From Roseicyclus sp. (GTDB lineage Bacteria > Pseudomonadota > Alphaproteobacteria > Rhodobacterales > Rhodobacteraceae), in the NCBI RefSeq assembly GCF_018402035.1, contig NZ_JAGYJN010000006.1, positions 1-64,000 of the forward strand: a stretch of 64,000 nt of DNA, read 5' to 3'. Of this stretch, positions 2,912 to 38,144 are shown in pieces (within the stretch, counting starts at the first letter, position 1; each line of letters starts with the position of its first letter). A program made the position numbers and the translations under genes. Under the pieces are notes generated by a model, which ran no database searches, was not told where the DNA came from, and saw only the letters and a program-made list of their open reading frames with translations.

Positions 2912-2988
2912 GGCCCCGTGGCTCAAATGGATAGAGCAATCCCCTCCTAAGGGATAGGTTACAGGTTCGAATCCTGTCGGGGTCACCA
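2912..2988 (+). tRNA. tRNA-Arg (anticodon CCT)
   Basis: A complete cloverleaf with CCA encoded. The acceptor stem GGCCCCG / CGGGGTC pairs fully, with one G-T. The anticodon stem ATCCC/GGGAT closes loop CTCCTAA with anticodon CCT at 2946-2948, reading AGG. T-loop TTCGAAT is present. The 3' 45 bases (2944-2988) are duplicated in inverted orientation at 4400-4444, behind the integrase. The tRNA is therefore the attachment target of that recombinase and is left intact. Confidence 0.95.
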
Positions 2989-3098
2989 CGCCTGCTACAC
3001 GAATGGCAGACGAGATCGTGCTTACTTTCTGATAATCCCCACAATTTTTCATCTCGCGTGGCTGCGCGTGGAAAAGGGGCTTAACCAAGTTGCAGACC
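2944..3098 (+). repeat. Left arm of 155-bp perfect inverted repeat (element 1)
   Basis: Runs from the anticodon loop of tRNA-Arg to the third codon of the integrase. Every base pairs with 4290-4444 (position p matches 7388-p). Matching stops at 2943/4445 outside and at 3099/4289 inside. Confidence 0.95.
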
Positions 3099-4307
3099 AA
3101 GACACCGCCATTCACCTATGTGCGACGTGGATACTTCTACTTTTCCCGTCGAGTCCCTGCAGATTTGCGCGATCACTATTCTTGCTCGCGGATCGTTAGC
3201 GCACTGCATACAAAATCCTTACATCAAGCGCGATTGCGGGCTGCGTCTGCTTCCGTTCAACTGGAAGCCTATTGGTCGCAGATAAGGCTTTCCCGGATGC
3301 AAGTTCCCGGCATGTCTTTCGTCAAAACAATCCACAACGTAACTCAACCCATTTGCCGTAGAGGTGACCAAGTTCTTGACGAATCGACTGCTTCCAACGG
3401 ACCTAGCTGGTCCGAAGCTGTTAAATTCTACCTACGGCTTCGTGGTAATGGGCGACCCGCCACGTTTGAAGCCGACGTTTGTCGTTCTGCCAACTACCTC
3501 ATCGATGTTATAGGTGACCGGAATCTCCAATCTTTTTCGCGTAGTGATGCTCTTCAGTTCCGTGACTGGTTAGTGGCAAGAGGGTTTGCCGGTTCATCTG
3601 TTACTAGGTGTTTCTCCAACATAAACGCGGTGTTTAACTTTGCCGTGTCTGAATTTGCCTTGAACATCACCAACCCCTTCCGTGGGGTCTATCATGACCG
3701 ACAGGCTGGTGTGGTGATCCGGAAGCCGATCCCGGTGCAGGATATCCGGAAGGTCCAGCAGGCCTGCCGTGATCTGAACGACGACATGCGCTGGCTGATC
3801 GCCATCGTTTCTGACACGGGAATGCGCTTGGCAGAGGTGGCAGGTCTGGCCAGAGAGGACCTATGCGATCTGGACGGTCCTACGCCCTATCTCAAAGTTC
3901 AACGACATCCATGGCGTAGGCTAAAGACCGCAAGCAGTGAGCGCCTAGTTCCTCTGGTCGAAGAGGCACTTTGGGGAGCCAGACAGGCGTACGGGCAGGG
4001 TGATGGCTCTGCGTTCCTGTTCCCACGCTATAACAGGGCAGGGACCACATCTGCCAACTCGGCCAGTGCTGCTCTGAACAAATGGATGGGCGAATATGTG
4101 CCGGATGGCTGCACGATGCATAGCTTCCGCCATTCGATGCGGGACCGCCTACGGGCCGTGCAGTGTCCCAGCGATATCACCGATCAGATCGGCGGATGGG
4201 CGAGAGCCGGTGTAGGTCAGGGCTATGGTGCCGGGTATCCGCTTAGCATCCTGCATGACTGGATGGTTGCAATAGCGGACCCAAATAAGGGTCTGCAACT
4301 TGGTTAA
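3090..4307 (+). CDS. Tyrosine recombinase / tRNA-targeting integrase (element 1)
   Basis: Site-specific recombinase of 405 residues. An N-terminal arm-type domain (YVRRGYFYFSRRVPADLR…) is followed by a SAM-like core-binding region and the C-terminal catalytic domain. Catalytic residues are all visible: Arg246 (DTGMRLAEVAGL), Lys in HPWRRLKTASSER, His344-x-x-Arg347 (HSFRHSMRDRL) and Tyr379 or Tyr383 (GYGAGY). TTG at 3090 is taken as start because the N-terminus then matches the sister integrase at 8002-9174. A GGGG-rich site lies about 10 nt upstream. The last five codons and the stop (GLQLG-stop) are supplied by the right repeat arm, so the C-terminus was created at the repeat junction. The gene is read in the same direction as tRNA-Arg and begins 101 nt behind it. 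Confidence 0.92.
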   Translation: MQTKTPPFTYVRRGYFYFSRRVPADLRDHYSCSRIVSALHTKSLHQARLRAASASVQLEAYWSQIRLSRMQVPGMSFVKTIHNVTQPICRRGDQVLDESTASNGPSWSEAVKFYLRLRGNGRPATFEADVCRSANYLIDVIGDRNLQSFSRSDALQFRDWLVARGFAGSSVTRCFSNINAVFNFAVSEFALNITNPFRGVYHDRQAGVVIRKPIPVQDIRKVQQACRDLNDDMRWLIAIVSDTGMRLAEVAGLAREDLCDLDGPTPYLKVQRHPWRRLKTASSERLVPLVEEALWGARQAYGQGDGSAFLFPRYNRAGTTSANSASAALNKWMGEYVPDGCTMHSFRHSMRDRLRAVQCPSDITDQIGGWARAGVGQGYGAGYPLSILHDWMVAIADPNKGLQLG

Positions 4308-4444
4308 GCCCCTTTTCCACGCGCAGCCACGCGAGATGAAAAATTGTGGGGATTATCAGAAAGTAAGCACGATCTCGTCTGCCATTCGTGTAGCAGGCGT
4401 GGTGACCCCGACAGGATTCGAACCTGTAACCTATCCCTTAGGAG
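4290..4444 (-). repeat. Right arm of 155-bp perfect inverted repeat (element 1)
   Basis: Exact reverse complement of 2944-3098. It holds the last codons and stop of the integrase on its inner edge and an inverted 45-nt fragment of tRNA-Arg (4400-4444) on its outer edge. Confidence 0.95.
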
Positions 4445-4503
4445 CTATCATTTAATCCCACCAAGCAAGAGTATGTGATTGCTGGATTGTGGACAAGTGA
4501 AGT

Positions 4504-4686
4504 GTGATTGGTCTGTGGATTGTGCCGAAGGGCGACAAGGTGAGTAGCCGTGGCTTTGCAGGCCTCAACATCATGCACAGCATGGCAGACGGGACACGAG
4601 AACTGCGTGGCGGGTTTGAAGTGGGCCGCACCCAGAGCGGCATTGCTGATGTCAGCGCCTCACTGCGCTGGCAGATGCGATTTTAA
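4504..4686 (+). pseudogene. C-terminal remnant of an outer-membrane beta-barrel protein
   Basis: A 60-residue frame opens directly after a stop at 4498-4500 and ends with SASLRWQMRF. An alternating hydrophobic strand with a terminal Phe is the signature recognised by the BAM machinery at the end of autotransporters and porins. Upstream residues (GFAGLNIMHSM…LRGGFEVGRTQ) also look like amphipathic strands. No signal peptide or body of a barrel is present, so it is read as the surviving tail of a larger gene cut when the neighbouring integrase unit arrived. The family is uncertain. Confidence 0.35.
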
Positions 4687-4839
4687 GCCGGATTTGTAGG
4701 ACGGGTAACCGGGGGCGGCCTTCGGGTCGCCGTTATTCGTTTAGGCGGTCTTCACCCAGCCCTAATCCTTGATGCAACCCTTGCGGCAGGACACTGCGAT
4801 TCCCATGTCCATGCATCCCGCGCAAAGGCTGCCCTCTCC

Positions 4840-5055
4840 ATGACAACTACCAGCACACCCACCGAGACCATCACGCTTTTGCGTTCCGACAAGCCGATGG
4901 CGAAAGAGGCTGTCCTTGGGAATGACGGCATTCCAGTTGTTGGTAGGGTCAAAATAGGGTTCCTGTTCGATGTCACGGAATGGCCAGTGGCTGGCATTCA
5001 CAATTTCCAAGACCGGCTACAGCAGCTTCAGCATGGCGTGGCTGTGAAGGAATAG
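4840..5055 (+). pseudogene. Possible N-terminal fragment of a phage/ICE primase-like protein
   Basis: A 71-residue frame starts at ATG 4840 (TTTSTPTETITLLRSDKPM…). The pattern of a short polar leader, then an ITLLRSDKP-like strand, a Gly-rich linker and a helix rich in Gln/Leu recalls the N-termini of primase/helicase proteins of integrative elements, but the match is from memory and weak. It ends 147 bp before the IS21 insertion. An opposite-strand Cys-rich frame (4762-5010) overlaps it and is probably a shadow. Confidence 0.25.
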
Positions 5056-5202
5056 TCAGGATTGCACCCATCCTTAAGGTCAACTAGTATGGGGAAGGAA
5101 GGCCCCGCTAGGGGGCCGGACTGACCTATAGCAGGTAAGCCCATAGGTAGCAGATCCATAGCCCAGATGGCCCTTATGCCCATGAACGATAAAGATCATG
5201 AC

Positions 5203-5231
5203 TGTTGATTGCCACTGAGATTTGACCCGGC
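5203..5231 (+). repeat. IS21 left terminal inverted repeat
   Basis: 29 bp, identical to the reverse complement of 7671-7699. It starts with TG, as IS21 termini do. Confidence 0.92.
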
Positions 5232-5275
5232 ATTGTCACCGAGATCTGACCCACCCGGTCGTTATGTTCTGCGTG

Positions 5276-6067
5276 TCACGCTGGCGTCAATGCTGGTGTT
5301 TCCTTCCGTTTCTTTTTCGCTGTCTCGGAGCTGGCCTTGAAGCGATAGCTGTCATTGCCGGTCTCCAAAATGTGGCAGCGATGTGTGAGGCGATCGAGAA
5401 GCGCTGTGGTCATTTTTGCGTCTCCGAAGACCGTCGCCCATTCGGCGAAGCTCAAGTTCGTGGTGATGATGACGCTGGTGCGCTCGTAAAGCTTGCTCAG
5501 GAGGTGGAAGAGCAAGGCACCGCCAGAGGCGCTGAACGGCAAGTATCCCAACTCGTCTAGGACCACCAAGTCGGTTTTCACCAGCGCTTCGGCAATCTTC
5601 CCGGCCTTTCCTTGGGCTTTTTCCTGCTCCAGCGCGTTGACCAGTTCGACCGTCGAGAAGAAGCGCACGCGCTTGCGGTGATGCTCGATAGCCTGGATGC
5701 CGAGGGCTGTCGCAACATGCGATTTCCCTGTGCCGGGCCCGCCGATCAGGACCACATTCTCAGCCCCATCCAGGAACTCGCATCGATGGAGCTGGCGGAC
5801 CAGAGCTTCACGCATTTCACTGGCGGCAAAGTCGAAGGCGGACAAATCCTTGTAGGCTGGGAAGCGTGCAGCTTTCATGTGGTAGGCGGTTGATCGCACC
5901 TCTCGCTCGGCCATCTCGGCCTTGAGCAGTTGCGACAGGATCGGCATGGCAGCCTCGAACGCAGGCGAGCCTTGCTCATGCAAGTCCTGCACGGCCTGCG
6001 CCATGCCGGGCATTTTAAGGCTGCGCAACATGATGATCAACGCAGCACCCGCAGGATCATGACGCAT
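5276..6067 (-). CDS. istB: IS21 helper ATPase IstB
   Basis: AAA+ ATPase of the DnaC/IstB type that loads on target DNA and activates the IstA transposase. It has 263 residues from ATG 6067. The longer frame begins inside istA and adds 15 residues without homology. The Walker A motif is GGPGTGKSH and Walker B is VVLDELGY. Sensor-like ITTN and the C-terminal [11 protein letters not shown] block follow, and the C-terminus is Lys-rich (AKKKRKE). It overlaps the 3' end of istA by 11 bp, the usual translational coupling in this family. It appears intact. Confidence 0.95.
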
Positions 6068-7586
6068 GACGGGTTCCTTTCTGGGTGCGCAGCCCATCAT
6101 AGCGCGCGACATTGGCCTCGGGCTCTTTGCTCAGCGTCAAGGCCGATGGAGGGTTCACATCCGGTTGGTCGGTCGGTGTGCCATCCAGCAGCCTGTGGAG
6201 CAGGTTCAGCACATGGGTTTTGGTCGGCACGCCCGCCTCCAAAGCCAATTCCACCGCGCAAAGCACCGCCTGTTCATCATGGTGCAGCACCAAGGACAGG
6301 ATATCGACCATCTCGCGGTCCCCGCCGGGCTGGCGCAGTATTTTTGCTTGTAACATGCGGAAGGGTTCGGGCATTTCCACGAAGGGGGCGCCATTGCGCA
6401 GCGCCCCGGGCTTGCGCTGAACCACAGCCAGATAGTGGCGCCAGTCATAGATCACGCGCCCCGGCTGGCGGTGCGACCGGTCGATGATGCGCTCATGCGT
6501 GCAAATCACGTGCCCCTCGGCGACCACTACCAGCCGCTCGGGGTAAATGCGCAGGCTCACAGGACGGTTCGCAAAGCTGGCGGGCACAGAATAACGGGTG
6601 CGATCAAAGTTGATCAGGCAGGTCGGCGAGACGCGCTTTCTTTCCTCGACAAAGCCATCGAACATTGTGGGGAGCGGCATCTGCGCAGGCTTCTCAGCTT
6701 CCCACACATCGGCGATGGTTCCAGGCAACCTGCCATGGGCCGTCTCAGCCCACAGCAGTTTGCAGCGATCTTCCAACCAATCGTTCAGCGCATCCAGATC
6801 CGGAAAGGCTGGCATCAGCTGCCACATGCGGTGACGCGCATCGCGCACATTCTTCTCGACCTGTCCCTTCTCCCATCCTGCAGCCGGATTGCAGAACTCA
6901 GGCTCGAAGACATAATGGCTGGTCATCGCCGTGAACCGGGCATTCACATCGCGCTTCTTGCCAAGTCTGACCTTGTCGACGGCGGTCTTCATATTGTCAT
7001 AGATGCCGCGACCGGGCACGCCTTCGAAGACGCGAAACGCATGCCAATGAGCGTCGAACAGCATCTCATGCGTTTGCAACAGATAGGCCCGCACCAGAAA
7101 GGCGCGGCTGTGCGACAGCTTGATATGGGCAACCTGCAGCTTGATGCGTTCACCACCCACATAGGCCCAGTCTTCGCTCCAATCAAACTGAAAGGCTTCA
7201 CCCGGCTGGAACACAAGCGGCACGAAGACACCCCGGTCGGTCGTGTGATAAGCACGCTGCCGTTCGCCCTTCCATTCCCGCACGAAGGCCGCAACCCGTT
7301 CATAGGAGCCTTCATATCCCAGCTTCACCAAATCGGCGTGCATTAGCTTCGCCGTTCGGCGTTCTTTGCGTGACTTGCGCTGATCCGAAACCAGCCATCC
7401 TGTCAGCTGAGCAGCATACGGATCCAGCTTGCTCGGACGATCCGGCGTCTGAAACGCAGGTTCAACAATCCCCTCCCGCAAATACTTCTTGATTGTGTTG
7501 CGCGCGATGCCTGTGCGCCGCGCAATCTCGCGAATGGGCATCTTGTCTCGCAGCGCCCATGTCCTGATAACCTTCAAAAATCCCAT
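6057..7586 (-). CDS. istA: IS21 transposase IstA
   Basis: DDE transposase of 509 residues. An N-terminal helix-turn-helix ([21 protein letters not shown]) precedes the RNase-H-like core with acidic residues in FDWSEDW, YDNMKT and KGQVEKNV (the D, D and E positions) and the C-terminal beta-barrel region. ATG 7586 is preferred over the in-frame GTG at 7595 because GGAG lies 8 nt ahead of it. No frameshift or stop interrupts the gene. With istB it forms the whole coding content of the IS. Confidence 0.94.
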
Positions 7587-7670
7587 GTCGATCACTCCAT
7601 ATGCCCCCAGCTAGTTCAAGCCGGGGTAAGGTTGCACATGGGTCAATTCTCAGTGACAGTTTTGGCGGTT

Positions 7671-7699
7671 GCCGGGTCAAATCTCAGTGGCAATCAACA
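7671..7699 (-). repeat. IS21 right terminal inverted repeat
   Basis: 29 bp matching 5203-5231 in reverse complement. A second IS21-type end motif (GGGTCAATTCTCAGTGACAG) lies just inside it at 7640-7659. Confidence 0.92.
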
Positions 7700-7757
7700 A
7701 ATATGAGAAAATCATTGATCTAGCAGGGCAGTTGGTTCCGGTAATAGGGCGCAGCAG

Positions 7758-8002
7758 CCCTTCAGCGGCACCACTCTTCTCGATAAGCCACTGATTTTAC
7801 TCACGAAACAGCAATTTCGGATGAGGCGTAGTGGTTTATGGAGTGGTCAGCATCACGATACACATTCCGCAAAAACGGAATCTTCTACCTGCAGCGGTAC
7901 ATCCCCGCTGACCTGAGGCGGCATTATCGTACGGATCGCATCCAGCATTCTCTGAGGACACGTTCCCCCAGAGAGGCACAGGTGTTGGCAATGCAGGCTG
8001 TC
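7758..8002 (+). repeat. Left arm of 245-bp inverted repeat (element 2)
   Basis: Pairs with 9010-9254 (position p matches 17012-p) apart from three substitutions. Starts with the terminal 16 nt of tRNA-Thr (CCCTTCAGCGGCACCA) in + orientation and ends one base into the stop codon of the integrase. Confidence 0.93.
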
Positions 8003-8005
8003 TAA
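7838..8005 (+). CDS. Truncated integrase N-terminal domain (55 residues)
   Basis: The left repeat arm carries a copy of the first 55 codons of the integrase gene, with its own ATG and upstream region, and is closed by TAA at 8003-8005 straight after the repeat ends. The protein is identical to the first 55 residues of the full integrase even though the DNA differs at three places, because all three changes are synonymous. If expressed, the product would be the arm-DNA-binding domain alone, which in other recombinases can compete with the full protein. It may equally be a non-functional fragment. Confidence 0.45.
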   Translation: MEWSASRYTFRKNGIFYLQRYIPADLRRHYRTDRIQHSLRTRSPREAQVLAMQAV

Positions 8006-9174
8006 CGCTGCTGATCTATCGCCTGCATCCACTTCGCCAGCACAGCTAGATCATACCCCTGACCATAGCCTTCACCGATACCAGATCTTGCCCATCCCCC
8101 GATCTGATCGGCAATATCGACCGGGCATTCCACTGCTCTGAGCCTGTCACGCAGCGAGTGGCGAAACGAATGGACGGTGAATTCCTCACCCACAACACCT
8201 TTCAGCCATTTCGATAACGATGCGCTGGCGCTGTTGCCGTTGGTCTGATTGGCATTGGTGTATCTAGGAAATAGGAATGGCCCCTGTTGGCGTTCTAGAC
8301 AACGATGCATGGACCATAGCGCCGAACCAATCAGCGGGACCTTGCGTTCACTCGCCGTCGTCTTCAGCCGACGCCAAGGATGGGGCCGGATTATGAGGTA
8401 GGGATGTTCGGCATCAACCACGACATCCTCTCGATGTAGCCCGACAATCTCGGATAGGCGGCATCCGGTATCTGCCACAGCAGCAACGATCCAGCGCAGA
8501 TCGTCATCTTGATAGCGGCACTGTCGACGGACTTGCGCCAGCTTTGCTGCAGGGACTGGGACCCTTTGTTTACTGGGCTGGCTGCGATCCACGAATACAC
8601 CTGAAAACGGGTTGGACATCTCTAGGCCTTCTTCTTGAATGGCGAAGTTCAAGATGGCCTTGACCGTTGTCAGAACACGAACGACAGAGCTTGCTGCTAA
8701 GCCCTTGGCGACAAGGAAATCTCTGAACTTGCCAGCGTCCTTACGGTGTAGATCTACGAGGGCTTTCTTGCCGATGGCTGCCTCTACATAATCGACCGCC
8801 CGCATGGCACCTGCGGCAAAGGTCTTGCCACGACCATTACCTTTGAGCCTCAGATAGATAGCCGCTGCATCTCGGAACGACAGGCGCGGCTGATCAGGTT
8901 GCTTAGGCTCCACGGGGGCAGGAGCCTCATTCACTGCGGCAAGCAAATGTTGCCCGGGAATGGCACCATCGGCAGCCCTCAGTGAAAACCAATAGGCTTC
9001 CAACTTAGCGACAGCCTGCATGGCCAACACCTGTGCCTCTCTCGGGGAACGTGTCCTCAGAGAATGCTGGATGCGATCCGTACGATAATGCCGCCTCAGG
9101 TCAGCGGGGATGTACCGCTGCAGGTAGAAGATTCCGTTCTTGCGGAATGTGTATCGTGATGCTGACCACTCCAT
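8002..9174 (-). CDS. Tyrosine recombinase / tRNA-targeting integrase (element 2)
   Basis: 390-residue site-specific recombinase, homologous over its full length to the integrase at 3090-4307. Shared blocks include the N-terminal IFYLQRYIPADLRRHY-like arm domain, YLRLKGNGR, DTGCRLSEIVGL (catalytic Arg), HPWRRLKTTASER (Lys), HSFRHSLRDRL (His-x-x-Arg) and GEGYGQGY (Tyr). The catalytic set is complete. ATG 9174 has a GGATGAGG-like site upstream. The gene is read in the same direction as tRNA-Thr and starts 64 nt behind its 3' end. The stop codon coincides with the inner edge of the left repeat arm. Confidence 0.93.
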   Translation of the reverse strand: MEWSASRYTFRKNGIFYLQRYIPADLRRHYRTDRIQHSLRTRSPREAQVLAMQAVAKLEAYWFSLRAADGAIPGQHLLAAVNEAPAPVEPKQPDQPRLSFRDAAAIYLRLKGNGRGKTFAAGAMRAVDYVEAAIGKKALVDLHRKDAGKFRDFLVAKGLAASSVVRVLTTVKAILNFAIQEEGLEMSNPFSGVFVDRSQPSKQRVPVPAAKLAQVRRQCRYQDDDLRWIVAAVADTGCRLSEIVGLHREDVVVDAEHPYLIIRPHPWRRLKTTASERKVPLIGSALWSMHRCLERQQGPFLFPRYTNANQTNGNSASASLSKWLKGVVGEEFTVHSFRHSLRDRLRAVECPVDIADQIGGWARSGIGEGYGQGYDLAVLAKWMQAIDQQR

Positions 9175-9254
9175 AAACCACTACGCCTCATCCGAAATTG
9201 CTGTTTCGTGAGTAAAATCAGTGGCTTATCGAGAAGAGTGGTGCCGCTGAAGGG
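9010..9254 (-). repeat. Right arm of 245-bp inverted repeat (element 2)
   Basis: Covers integrase codons 1-55, the spacer to the tRNA and the 3' 16 nt of tRNA-Thr. Matches 7758-8002 in reverse complement with three substitutions. Confidence 0.93.
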
Positions 9255-9314
9255 ACTCGAACCCCCGACCCCATCATTACGAATGACGTGCTCTACCAGC
9301 TGAGCTACAGCGGC
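9239..9314 (-). tRNA. tRNA-Thr (anticodon CGT)
   Basis: Complete cloverleaf with CCA encoded. The acceptor stem GCCGCTG/CAGCGGC is perfect, the D-arm GCTC…GAGC is present, the anticodon loop TTCGTAA gives CGT (reads ACG), and the T-loop is TTCGAGT. It lies downstream of hemY on the same strand. Its last 16 nt are repeated in inverted orientation at 7758-7773, behind the integrase. Confidence 0.95.
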
Positions 9315-9424
9315 AATCTTCTCTATGCGGGGCGTTGGCCCTTTGTGGCTTGGGCGATCAAACTTCAACCACGCCAAGGCACGCCGCGCGGCCTCTTAGC
9401 AAGCTGTGTCCGGCGTGCCTAGCC

Positions 9425-10867
9425 CTAATTTCGGGCGCTCTGCCCGCTGATGACCTCTGCCGCCTCGCTGCTTTGGTCACGGCCATTCTCCAACGCGCCG
9501 ACGATGAGCGGGAGCATTTGCGCCGGGCCCATCAGCGCCGCGTCGCTTTGGGCGACCTCTTGCCAACTCAGCCGATCAAAGCTGCCACAATGGGTGCAGA
9601 CCGGGCGCCATTCGGCGTGGATATGGCCACAGCTGTCACAGACCCATTGCATGCCGCGCGGCGCCATCACGGCCTTGGCCAGCCATGCGCGCACCAGCCG
9701 ATCCTCGGCCCCCGCACCGCGTTCGATCGCGGCCATGATGGTCAGGGTGCGCGCGGTCGGATGGGTTTCGGCCAGATCGCCAAGCGCGCGGCGGGCGGCG
9801 GGGAAATCCTCGGCCGCGATTTGCAATTCGGCCTCGAGCATCTTGGCCTCGGGGTGGCCCGCATGTTTGGCGAGCAATGGCTTGAAGCGCTTCACGCGTT
9901 CAGCGGGTGTCTCGCCCGGTGCGATCTCGGCGAAGGCCGCAGCCAGATCGGGATGCGGGTCGGTCGCCCAAGCCGCCTTGACGATCTTATCGGCCTGTTT
10001 CGCCTTGCCATCGGCAATCGCCAGCCGCGCGGCCATCACGGCGGCGGGCACCAGCCCCGGTGCCATGCGCTGGGCGGTTTCCGCATCGCGCGTCGCCTCG
10101 GCGATCTTGCCTTCGGCCATGGCATCGCGCGCATGGGCCAGCGCCAGCACCGCATCGCGGCGTTTATGCACCTCCCGCGGGAGGTTGCCCGACCGCAGCG
10201 CGGCCGCCAGCGTGGCGCGTGCGCCCGCCCAATCCTCGTGACGGGCTTGCAGCTGCAACAGCGTGGTTTGCACCTCTTCGTTGCGCGGCCGGATCGCCAG
10301 CGCCTTTTCGGCCAGCTTCAGCGCCGTTTCCGTGTCGCCCGCGGCAAGCTTTTGCTTCATCAAGCCGCGCACGCCCACGAAACGCGTGCGATCATCGGCG
10401 ACCAAGGCCTTGAAGGTTGCGGTCGCCAAGGCGGTGTCGCCCACCATCTCGGCCCCTTGGGCGACCACCAGCTTGGTCAGTTCGGGACGGCCCAGATATG
10501 TCTCGGCGCGCTCGGCTTTGCGGATCGCCAAACGCCCTTCGCCTGCGGCCAAGGCCATCATGCCCTCGGCCAGCGCCTCATAGCCTTTGCGCTCGGCGCG
10601 GCGGTTGAAATAGCGGCTGATCGCGGTCTCATCGCCGTTGAGAAAGCGCAAACTCGCCACCAACAGACCGACCAGCTTGAACAATAGCCAGACCGAGATC
10701 AGCAGTACGACCGCCCCAAGGATCGCCAAAAGCGGCGTCAACACGAACTCGCGCCCCATGACGGTCAAAAGTGCGAAATCGCCCATCTCCATCAATTGGC
10801 CCGCGCCATAGGTGAGCCCCCCGATCAGCGCGACGAAGATGAGGACTTTCAGCAAGGACCAAAGCAT
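9425..10867 (-). CDS. hemY: HemY-like membrane TPR protein of haem biosynthesis operon
   Basis: Inner-membrane protein of the HemY family (not protoporphyrinogen oxidase), about 480 residues. Two N-terminal membrane helices (LLKVLIFVALIGGLTYGAG; LTPLLAILGAVVLLISVWLL) are followed by a long run of TPR-like helices (residues about 90-370). A C-terminal CxxC…CxxC zinc ribbon (VCDSCGHIHAEWRPVCTHCG) is common in alphaproteobacterial members. ATG 10867 is chosen because AAGGGGG precedes it and the first helix starts at once. It is last in the hemD - mitofilin-like - hemY operon. The exact role, thought to be supporting tetrapyrrole enzymes at the membrane, is not settled. Confidence 0.85.
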   Translation of the reverse strand: MLWSLLKVLIFVALIGGLTYGAGQLMEMGDFALLTVMGREFVLTPLLAILGAVVLLISVWLLFKLVGLLVASLRFLNGDETAISRYFNRRAERKGYEALAEGMMALAAGEGRLAIRKAERAETYLGRPELTKLVVAQGAEMVGDTALATATFKALVADDRTRFVGVRGLMKQKLAAGDTETALKLAEKALAIRPRNEEVQTTLLQLQARHEDWAGARATLAAALRSGNLPREVHKRRDAVLALAHARDAMAEGKIAEATRDAETAQRMAPGLVPAAVMAARLAIADGKAKQADKIVKAAWATDPHPDLAAAFAEIAPGETPAERVKRFKPLLAKHAGHPEAKMLEAELQIAAEDFPAARRALGDLAETHPTARTLTIMAAIERGAGAEDRLVRAWLAKAVMAPRGMQWVCDSCGHIHAEWRPVCTHCGSFDRLSWQEVAQSDAALMGPAQMLPLIVGALENGRDQSSEAAEVISGQSARN

Positions 10868-10880
10868 CGCAGCGCCCCCT

Positions 10881-12205
10881 TCAATTGTCGGTTGCCGCAA
10901 GCGTGGCGGTCAGGGCGGCAAGCCCTGCCTCCGCCGCCCGTCGCGCTTCGACATCGGCGACCCATGGGGCCAAAATGTCACGCGCGCCTTGCGGGAGCGC
11001 TGCGACCTCGGCCAAGGCCGCGTCGAGATCACCGCCCGCCACCGCCGCGCCCACGCGGCTGAGGACCGCATCGGGATCGTCGCCGTCGCGCGGTGCAACC
11101 GCCCGCCCGCCGATCTGGCCCATGACAAAGGCGCCCAGCCGGTCGCCCATGCTTTCGCCAGCGGTCTCTTGTAGCGCAACGGGCAGGGCCGCCCGCGCCA
11201 AAGGGGCAAAGTTGCGCGTCAGCGCATCTTGTGTCAGCACACCCACCTCGGCCAGTGATTGCAGCGGCTCGGGGATCGCGACCATGGTCGCGATGGTGGC
11301 CAAAGGTGCCGCAAAACTTGTTCCGCTGGCCAGCGCGGCTTGCACCTGACCAAGGGCTGCTTCGGCGGCAGCAAGGGCAAGGGCGGCCTGGGCTGCGGCC
11401 TCGGCCTCGGCGATGGCTTGCAGGGCCGTGGCCTCTGCCTCGGCGGCTTGGGCAGTGGCGGCTCTGGCTGCGTCTTGCAGGGCCGCAGCTTCGGCGGCGA
11501 TGGCATCGCGCTCGGCGGCCAGTTCGGCGGCGCGCGCATCGGCGGCTTGTTGGGCGGCCAAAAGATCTTCATCGGCATTGCCGGTGAAAACGGGGCGAGT
11601 CTCCAAGGCACCGACGCGCGCGGTCAAGGTCGCGATCCCATCTGTCGCGATGCCGATCTGGCCCGACAGCGCCGCGATTTGGTCGATCACAGGCGAAAGG
11701 TCGATCTCTGCCCCCAGCTTGCGGCGCGCTTTGCGTCACCGAGGTGCCAAGCGCCGCAATCTGGTCTTGCAGCGCCGATAGCGTCGCACCCTGCTCGGCC
11801 ACGGCTGTCGCGAGGGCCGGATCGGATGCGCCGCCGCTTTGGCCGGTCGGCAGCACGCCCAGATAGGCCGCGCCATAACCGATCCCGGCGGCAACCAGCC
11901 CGCCAAGCACGAAGCGGCACAATCCCTGCGCGCTGTTGCGGGGCAGGGGGCGGCGATGGCGGTGCGGCGACGGGTTCATCCGTCACGACCGCATCCGCGA
12001 TATCGGCGGTCTCTCGCGCATCGCCGCCATCTGACGCCGCAATGATGGTTGCGTCCTCTGCAACGGGTTGGGTGGCCGAATCGTGCATCGGGGTTTCGAC
12101 ATTGCCCGGCGCGGTCGCTGTCTGGGCCTCGGCGGCGTCGGATGCTGCCTTTAGCTTGCGCTGATTACCAGTGCTGGTTGAGCTTTTCGAGCTTGCGCGT
12201 GCCAC
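10881..12205 (-). pseudogene. Mitofilin-like membrane protein, two apparent frameshifts
   Basis: Reading three frames in series restores one protein of the mitofilin-like family (COG4223 type) found between hemD and hemY in this group. The parts are a Ser/Ala/acidic cytoplasmic tail from GTG 12205 (ARASSKSSTSTGNQRKLK…), one membrane helix (RFVLGGLVAAGIGYGAAYLG), then coiled-coil and Ala-rich helical repeats to the stop at 10881. The frame changes once at about 11920-11950 and once at about 11710-11738. Both are of the +1 kind. Either the gene is decayed or two bases were over-called. The intact coding signal on both sides of each break favours sequencing error. Confidence 0.75.
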
Positions 12206-14148: not shown

Positions 14149-15087
14149 GCGCGCGCATCGACATCATCGGCGCGGGCGCTTTCGGCACGGCGCTTGCCAT
14201 CACCTATGCTGCGGCGGGTCATCAGGTCACGCTTTTGGCCCGTGACGATGCCGCCGCCATGACGCGCGCGGGTGAAAATACCCGCCGCTTGCCGGGCTTT
14301 GCCTTTCCCCCCGGATTGCGTGTGACCGATGAGGCCGCCGATCTGACCGCCGATCTGGCGCTTTTGGCGCTGCCCACGCAAAGCCTTGGCGCGTTTTTGG
14401 CTGAAACGCCGCTTGGCGCGCAAACGCTCGTGTCTTGCGCCAAGGGGATCGACCGCGCCACCGGGCTTGGCCCCACGGCGCTGATCGCCCGCCATACGCG
14501 CGCGCGCGGCACAGCTGACCGGCCCAAGCTTTGCCGTCGATATCGCGGCGGGATTGCCCACCGCGCTGACGCTGGCCTGCGCCGATGACGGGGCAGGGGC
14601 GGCGCTGCAAGATCGGCTCTCCACACCGCTTTTGCGGCTTTACCGCACGACTGATGTGATCGGCGCGGAACTGGGCGGCGCGTTGAAAAACGTGGTGGCC
14701 ATCGCTGCCGGTGCCGTGATTGGCGCGGGCTACGGCGAAAGCGCGCGCGCGGCACTGATGACGCGCGGTCTGGCCGAGATGACGCGCCTTGCCGTGTCCC
14801 TTGGCGCAGAGCAGGCGACGCTGCGCGGCCTCTCGGGTCTGGGTGATCTGATCCTCACCTGCAACTCCGAGAAATCGCGCAATTTCCGCTATGGCTTGGC
14901 CTTGGCGCGTGGCGAAGGGCTTGCGGCAGATATCACCGTCGAAGGGCTGCACACCGCGCGCGAGATTGCCGCACGCCCCACTCTCGACACCCCCATCGCC
15001 GATGCGGTGGCAGCCCTCGCCGATGGCCACGCCGATCTTGCCGCGCTGGCCGATATGCTGCTCAACCGCCCCCTCAAGCCGGAGTAA
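14145..15087 (+). pseudogene. gpsA: NAD(P)H glycerol-3-phosphate dehydrogenase, one apparent frameshift
   Basis: Makes sn-glycerol-3-phosphate for phospholipids. The first frame gives the Rossmann start (DIIGAGAFGTALA) through VSCAKGIDRATG. The second frame resumes at [20 protein letters not shown] and continues through [30 protein letters not shown] and the C-terminal end. The switch lies within a CG-alternating run at about 14495-14512 and is a +1 shift. All family motifs are present across the two frames. Because the enzyme is normally needed for membrane lipid synthesis and the breaks in neighbouring genes are of the same kind, an over-called base is more likely than true loss. It overlaps tsaD by 4 bp. 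Confidence 0.85.
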
Positions 15088-38036: not shown

Positions 38037-38144
38037 GCGTGTCGCGTTTGATCAGTCCGCTATATTCAGCGCAACAGGCGAGGCAGCGTTTGCAAGGCAT
38101 AACGCGTTCGCCTGTTGCGCTGAATGCGATAGAACGCGACACGC
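38037..38144. repeat. 108-bp palindromic element (MITE-like)
   Basis: Outer arms of 12 bp (GCGTGTCGCGTT at 38037 and its complement ending at 38144) and inner arms of 18 bp (ATTCAGCGCAACAGGCGA at 38064-38081, complement at 38108-38125) enclose a 26-nt centre that is itself partly symmetrical. The asymmetric internal loops differ in length by 8 nt. It lies between the amtB terminator and the trhO stop. It has no reading frame. It could be a miniature inverted-repeat element or a REP-type unit. Confidence 0.6.

Follow-up and report, generated by a model that had tools for sequence, protein, structure and literature searches.

The passages of the published accounts drawn on here describe the closest known systems as follows: islands that target tRNA genes leave a displaced 3′ fragment of the gene that marks their far end (PMC4383910); the archaeal plasmid pTN3 has a tRNA-Leu gene as its insertion target, and its tyrosine integrase inverts, in vitro, the DNA that lies between opposed attachment (att) sites (PMC5495485); the Vibrio elements SE-6283 and SE-6945 have 19-bp imperfect repeats, four shared genes and two recombinases, and circularize without an empty site (PMC9345347); and the yeast 2-micron plasmid has 599-bp repeats containing FRT sites, occurs as equal isomers and undergoes double rolling-circle replication (PMC3147054; PMC6594588). 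Here we analyzed a 64,000-nucleotide (nt) stretch of Roseicyclus sp. (NCBI RefSeq assembly GCF_018402035.1, contig NZ_JAGYJN010000006.1, positions 1 to 64,000; henceforth the window), in which two tRNA genes each adjoin a unit consisting of a tyrosine integrase between inverted repeats (units A and B; Table 1). A first-pass annotation had proposed that these represent an IS-like (insertion sequence-like) class of single-gene elements. Comparison with their relatives leads us to a different reading: the two units are probably the integrase halves of one family of larger integrative elements with a 2-micron-like layout, for which we use the working name twin-att elements.

The two-repeat architecture of this family is well supported by 15 complete elements from nine genomes (5,102-13,331 bp), all of which follow the order target, t3-A-int-A′-t3′-Z-cargo-Z′-t3, host. 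In this notation, A and A′ are the arms round the integrase (int), Z and Z′ are a second inverted repeat round the cargo, and t3 is the 3′ piece of the tRNA gene, approximately the last 16 bp of the target. In genomes of the genus g46 the DNA to the right of the right arm proved to be one copy of the second inverted repeat; at locus L130 a 732-nt repeat (99.7% identity) that starts where the right arm has its outer end encloses 6.2 kb of cargo and terminates in a direct copy of the 3′ end of tRNA-Ser. The three t3 copies are exactly direct, inverted and direct in all nine of the elements G057a, G057c, L130, L132, L134, L136, L137, TM1040 and G212, and also in G1011, G1037a, G927 and G640c, which together with G806d and G640a make up six further elements with Z/Z′ and the right attachment site (attR). 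The element of Ruegeria sp. TM1040 lies on megaplasmid NC_008043.1, a complete record, at a tRNA-Phe gene; it codes for the integrase WP_011537162.1 and has A/A′ repeats of 85 nt and Z/Z′ repeats of 1148 nt (both 100% identical), with t3 at locus positions 14899, 16225 (inverted) and 27652, and both of its Z copies encode the same BRO-family protein, WP_011537156.1. Z and Z′ are likewise 100% identical over 3183 nt in G212 and 2265 nt in G1011, and the combined A+Z repeats span ~428-3255 nt in the nine elements listed first. Of the 15 complete elements, 11 have a left-end tRNA gene according to ARAGORN.

Three attachment sites can be read from the junctions of these elements. At the left junction stands attL and at the right one attR (Z′-t3-host); on the opposite strand the middle junction reads Z′-t3-A, with the same left side as attR and the same right side as attL, and it accordingly has the sequence expected of a complete, inverted attP. 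G057a and G057c each have the same 45 nt on the left of t3 at the reversed middle site as at attR, and their middle site and attL agree fully over t3 and a further 30 nt. The left 45 nt of the reversed middle site and attR also agree in TM1040, and the left 25 nt agree in all six further elements (G1011, G1037a, G927, G806d, G640a and G640c). Sequence comparison thereby predicts a recombinase target in each repeat, Z′-t3-A at the middle site and at the junction of attL with attR, and since the middle site is a complete attP, a circle excised by attL × attR recombination would hold two opposed attP sites. As to the site before insertion, a match to the empty site of G057a was found in two genomes, where tRNA-Ser(GGA) of G408 and tRNA-Ser(TGA) of G410 are each followed directly by DNA similar to that beyond attR of G057a (75% over 73 nt and 81% over 197 nt, respectively); this supports a t3-to-t3 insertion for G057a.

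The mechanism that we propose begins with recombination between attL and attR by the DUF6538 integrase, which would release a circle; its formation is something we infer. On this circle two attP sites would face in opposite directions, one in each of the long inverted repeats (A+Z), and these repeats would split it into an integrase half and a cargo half. The integrase would then invert the DNA between the opposed attP sites, and inversion during replication would, as a conjecture, start double rolling-circle amplification and so raise copy number. An inversion of the predicted kind is visible in the single-contig genome G057, whose copies a and c align in the same direction over the integrase half and in opposite directions over the cargo half, with the change lying inside Z/Z′ (G057a 6372-11449 aligns reversed to G057c 13437-8353 at 89.7%). 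G057c is collinear across both halves with the copy of G417 at the same tRNA, and the two isomers are seen between copies (G057a versus G057c), not within one population. The repeats of one element also evolve in concert, as judged by their identities: Z and Z′ are 96.1-100% identical within an element and 78.5-89.8% between elements (four elements), and A and A′ are 100% identical within and 93.4-95.9% between (three elements).

Inversion by the integrase is the likely cause of the flipped cargo halves, yet homologous recombination between the long repeats could also produce both the inversion and the concerted evolution. In this alternative the layout is right, the inversion and the identity of the arms arise by homologous recombination, and the second attP is a passive, functionless remnant, for example of a past inverted duplication. 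The repeats are indeed long and near-identical enough for RecA, and the integrase half is turned round in only one of 26 loci; however, a complete middle attP is kept in divergent elements and families, and a useless repeat would be expected to go, whereas it is retained in 15 elements of 5-13 kb. We regard this account as unlikely, while giving it some weight. A phase-variation switch, in which inversion alters expression of the cargo or the integrase rather than copy number, would fit the occurrence of the cargo half in both orientations and the orientation of a replication-like gene, which faces int in G057a, L132 and G1037a and has the opposite direction in G057c, L130, TM1040 and L134. 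Against it, all the genes of the cargo turn together as a single block between long repeats, and we think such a switch quite improbable. A narrower candidate, a flip switch of the integrase alone, was dropped because of the single turned-round case in 26.

Seen in the light of these elements, the window units appear to retain the first half of the layout. As the first-pass annotation had stated, their total sizes are 1501 bp (A) and 1497 bp (B), their full-length integrases are homologous, and the inverted repeats comprise the tRNA 3′ end, a spacer and the integrase 5′ end. The two integrases share 45% identity over 397 columns, and the repeats match at 155 of 155 nt (100%) in unit A and at 98.8% over 245 nt in unit B. 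Both units are co-directional with their target tRNAs, Arg-CCT and Thr-CGT. The claim that the inner junction falls exactly at the integrase stop holds for unit B, whose arm has its end at the final base of the stop codon; the arm of unit A begins 15 nt ahead of that codon. DUF6538 and Phage_integrase (PF00589) are matched by both integrases, and residues of catalytic type are invariant across eight aligned integrases. By comparison with the relatives, we infer that the outer end of the unit A right arm is the middle attachment site, that is, an inverted attP.

Table 1. Features of units A and B and the DNA between them (positions of the 64,000-nt window)
Feature	Position	Strand	Basis or remark
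tRNA-Arg(CCT), target of unit A	2912-2988	+	ARAGORN
Unit A, outer end of left arm (last 45 nt of tRNA-Arg(CCT))	from 2944		ARAGORN and repeat coordinates
Unit A, left arm (A): 3′ part of the tRNA gene, spacer and opening codons of the integrase; holds attL	2944-3098	+	repeat match
Unit A, tyrosine integrase, 405 aa	3090-4307	+	TTG start as listed
Unit A, right arm (A′)	4290-4444	-	inverted match to left arm
DNA right of unit A	4445-5202	no strand	no match in same-genus loci or other relatives examined
IS21-family insertion sequence between units A and B	5203-7699	-
IS21 element, 30-nt ends	5203-5232 / 7670-7699
IS21 element, istB	5276-6112
IS21 element, istA	6057-7595
Unit B, right arm (A′); outer end 7758 is the middle attachment site	7758-8002	+	repeat match
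Unit B, tyrosine integrase, 390 aa	8002-9174	-
Unit B, left arm (A): tRNA-Thr 3′ end (16 nt), spacer, first 55 integrase codons; holds attL	9010-9254	-
tRNA-Thr(CGT), target of unit B	9239-9314	-	ARAGORN

The same genome (3.03 Mb in 89 contigs, 92.4% complete) has a third unit, C, outside the window on contig C1 at tRNA-Arg(CCG), with arms of 120 nt (98.3%). All three units consist of arms and integrase only: a direct copy of t3, allowing up to three mismatches, was not found to the right of A, B or C (7.8 kb covered for B). Lacking a detectable attR, they are read as integrase halves without cargo halves, which they presumably lost; the DNA immediately right of unit A (4445-5202) may be a remnant of such a cargo half. 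Both target tRNAs are present without units in genomes of the same genus, in which the DNA between the window units finds no match. The proposal that ~1.5 kb of arm, integrase and arm moves alone as an IS-like element draws on these three bare units and on the arm-bearing loci with about 8 kb or more downstream, 15 of 30 of which, the three own-genome units included, show no complete Z/Z′/attR. Against it, nine genomes show the unit as one half of longer elements (15 elements of 5.1-13.3 kb), where a second repeat and a displaced t3 stand at the far end of the cargo half. The middle junction, moreover, forms an entire att site, and on its outer side the sequence runs on into element DNA, ~726 nt of which are common to G057a and G057c beyond the right arm. 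As a bare unit would have host DNA there, the single-gene reading of the first-pass annotation is weakened, and we consider it very improbable.

Some further observations were made in the same genome. In their 3′ halves the integrases of units A and C share 93% identity over 657 nt (window 3612-4267; L006 6070-6725), and in their 5′ halves they diverge, a mosaic that suggests recombination between units. On contig C34 (L007 7203-7556) a tRNA-Asn is followed by an integrase 5′ fragment of ~72 codons with one stop and without inverted arms, possibly a relic. A 38-nt stretch of the window (38104-38141) is identical to L007 9855-9892, on a contig other than that of the window.

The plan is not limited to this assembly, the outcome that the first-pass annotation had named as fatal to it. 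A profile of three integrases matched one of 13 genomes of the genus and at least 27 of 394 genomes of the family (E 1e-60; own genome included), and an eight-integrase profile (E 1e-70) matched at least 31 of 390 genomes of the order and at least 10 of 385 of the class, these being lower bounds since the family, order and class searches scored at most four candidates per genome. In a scan of genome contigs a single-integrase query gave no relative and an alignment query gave nine loci, of which L147-L150 and L152 entered the main tally and the partial matches L151, L153, L154 and L155 were left out. The tally has 59 rows; L150 is the same contig as G102 C1, leaving 58 distinct homologues, 40 of them full-length. 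Flanking arms (67-344 nt, 77.6-100% identity) are present in 33 of these 40 and in six of 18 partial homologues. Among the 33, the start of the right arm lies no more than 35 nt from where the integrase match ends in 23 and 332-3622 nt further on in 10, and the upstream tRNA is co-directional in 25 and opposite in none. In a later set of 20 loci, hand-picked rather than drawn at random from 60 rows for long contigs and different families, 18 have arms; in G892 these stop short of the tRNA, and in G806b their identity is 79.9%. As controls we took 35 of 95 Phage_integrase places from six genomes, three of the 35 being distant clade-like integrases; 13 of the 35 lie within 2 kb of a tRNA and none has a flanking inverted repeat of at least 50 nt, so the arm plan is beyond chance, as had been argued from the two window units. 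That the layout is an artefact of assembly or amplification has next to no chance of being right, for although nine of the 33 arm-bearing full-length loci have less than 700 nt of contig after the integrase match and one flipped case begins at a repeat edge, the layout is present in the complete TM1040 record and in genomes that consist of one contig, G057 and G806 among them, the arms differ between units and match the tRNA of each, and contig breaks are the expected effect of a real long repeat.

Several observations at the margins of the survey may be added. At L054 4916 (G129 contig C3; insertion G129c) the unit lies inside a protein gene rather than a tRNA gene, a gene we presume to be FadL-like, and 9 nt of the intact gene, as in G426, recur at the arm end. 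Together with tRNA trailers, G129c had prompted the idea that an inverted copy of host DNA is made at each insertion; we dropped it since the two-attP model with homogenised repeats explains most such cases, although the G129c copy is not fully explained by that model. About 33 kb downstream of G057a, L039 holds a further integrase, without a tRNA and with weak flanking arms (77.6%); over 111 nt its upstream arm matches the G057a arm without a difference, and it is perhaps a second element stacked on G057a.

The following results weigh against the reading of the window units as halves of twin-att elements. No circular form was found, the plasmid collection (E 1e-30) yielding one record, which is the integrated TM1040 copy; the phage collection and viral contigs gave no match. 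Besides the loci without a complete cargo half mentioned above, seven of the 40 distinct full-length homologues and two of the 20 later loci lack arms. ARAGORN finds no left-end tRNA in four of the 15 complete elements (G212, L134, G806d and G640a), and G640a has a left t3 from which its middle and right copies deviate. Among the 26 arm-bearing full-length loci with a nearby tRNA, the one with its integrase half turned round stands at a contig start: in L139 (G406 contig C15, 1-1473) the integrase points toward the tRNA, which lies on the far side, an orientation that may be an assembly choice in a contig beginning at a repeat edge. Finally, a Pfam scan of 21 cargo proteins named no partition gene.

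The cargo includes replication-like and defense genes. L134 has Prim-Pol and D5-type open reading frames; the cargo of L130 includes a 1079-aa protein with primase and origin-binding matches, also found in L132, G057a and G057c; and that of G640c includes an AEP-TOTE primase. A 636-aa protein family, with no Pfam match above the cut-off, is common to TM1040, G212, G271, G343, G1011 and G1037a; in G212 and G1011 (L101, L277) the gene (~633-640 aa) lies inside Z, so that there are two identical opposed copies. Twin-att elements also carry defense genes, namely a type I restriction-modification system in TM1040 and a Mza-like set in G640a. A more far-reaching idea, which we put forward tentatively and would not ourselves bet on, is that the elements are a bacterial counterpart of the 2-micron plasmid, with an integrase in a dual role (insertion at tRNA genes and inversion between the two opposed attP sites of the excised circle), the inversion turning replication into double rolling-circle amplification before re-integration; such a design would have arisen separately from that of yeast and would spread the defense cargo. 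If the layout is true, there are integrative elements with two opposed attP sites that island finders built on one attL and one attR would misdescribe, and at whose repeats short-read assemblies break, as the contigs ending soon after the integrase illustrate. It would also offer a natural bacterial test case for the Flp-type amplification model in TM1040, a marine isolate with a complete genome.

How, then, do these elements compare with those described? With pTN3 they share a tyrosine integrase, a tRNA target and, as proposed here, inversion between opposed att sites; as far as the pTN3 passages drawn on here go, its inversions concern the chromosome, and two opposed att sites within repeats on the element are not described in them. 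The strand-biased circularizing elements SE-6283 and SE-6945, so far as the parts of their account used here tell, are likewise integrative, with a tyrosine recombinase and terminal inverted repeats, but twin-att elements have one integrase, long repeats and an empty site. The tRNA-targeting islands agree with them in the tRNA target, the integrase beside attL, the displaced 3′ fragment at the far end and the empty site. In twin-att elements there are, in addition, another complete attP next to the integrase, in inverted orientation, and inverted repeats nested as two pairs. To our knowledge, these last two traits are not part of the usual descriptions of such islands. Judged as islands of this kind, the window units have a tyrosine recombinase and an attL at the tRNA 3′ end and show no attR in the DNA examined to their right, whereas among the relatives both attR and, for G057a, the empty site were found. 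An ordinary island with unrelated repeats had also been entertained, and was dropped because the three att sites agree. The twin-att plan was not found described in the open-licence literature, which is weak evidence of novelty as subscription journals lay mostly outside the search; the first-pass suggestion of an undescribed system survives in that the plan is real and recurrent, with no description in the literature searched, and fails as a single-gene element. The 2-micron plasmid (Flp/FRT) remains the nearest in organization: in both, a circle, here predicted, is halved by long inverted repeats, each holding a target for the tyrosine recombinase that the element itself encodes, and there are two isomers. 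Unlike it, twin-att elements are bacterial, insert at tRNA genes using t3 and employ a DUF6538/Phage_integrase integrase; their combined repeats have the variable length given above, their circle is a prediction and its amplification a conjecture, and, beside the Rep1/Rep2/STB partition system of the plasmid, no partition gene was named among the 21 cargo proteins scanned. Twin-att elements would resemble the 2-micron plasmid in how they work without being members of that type.

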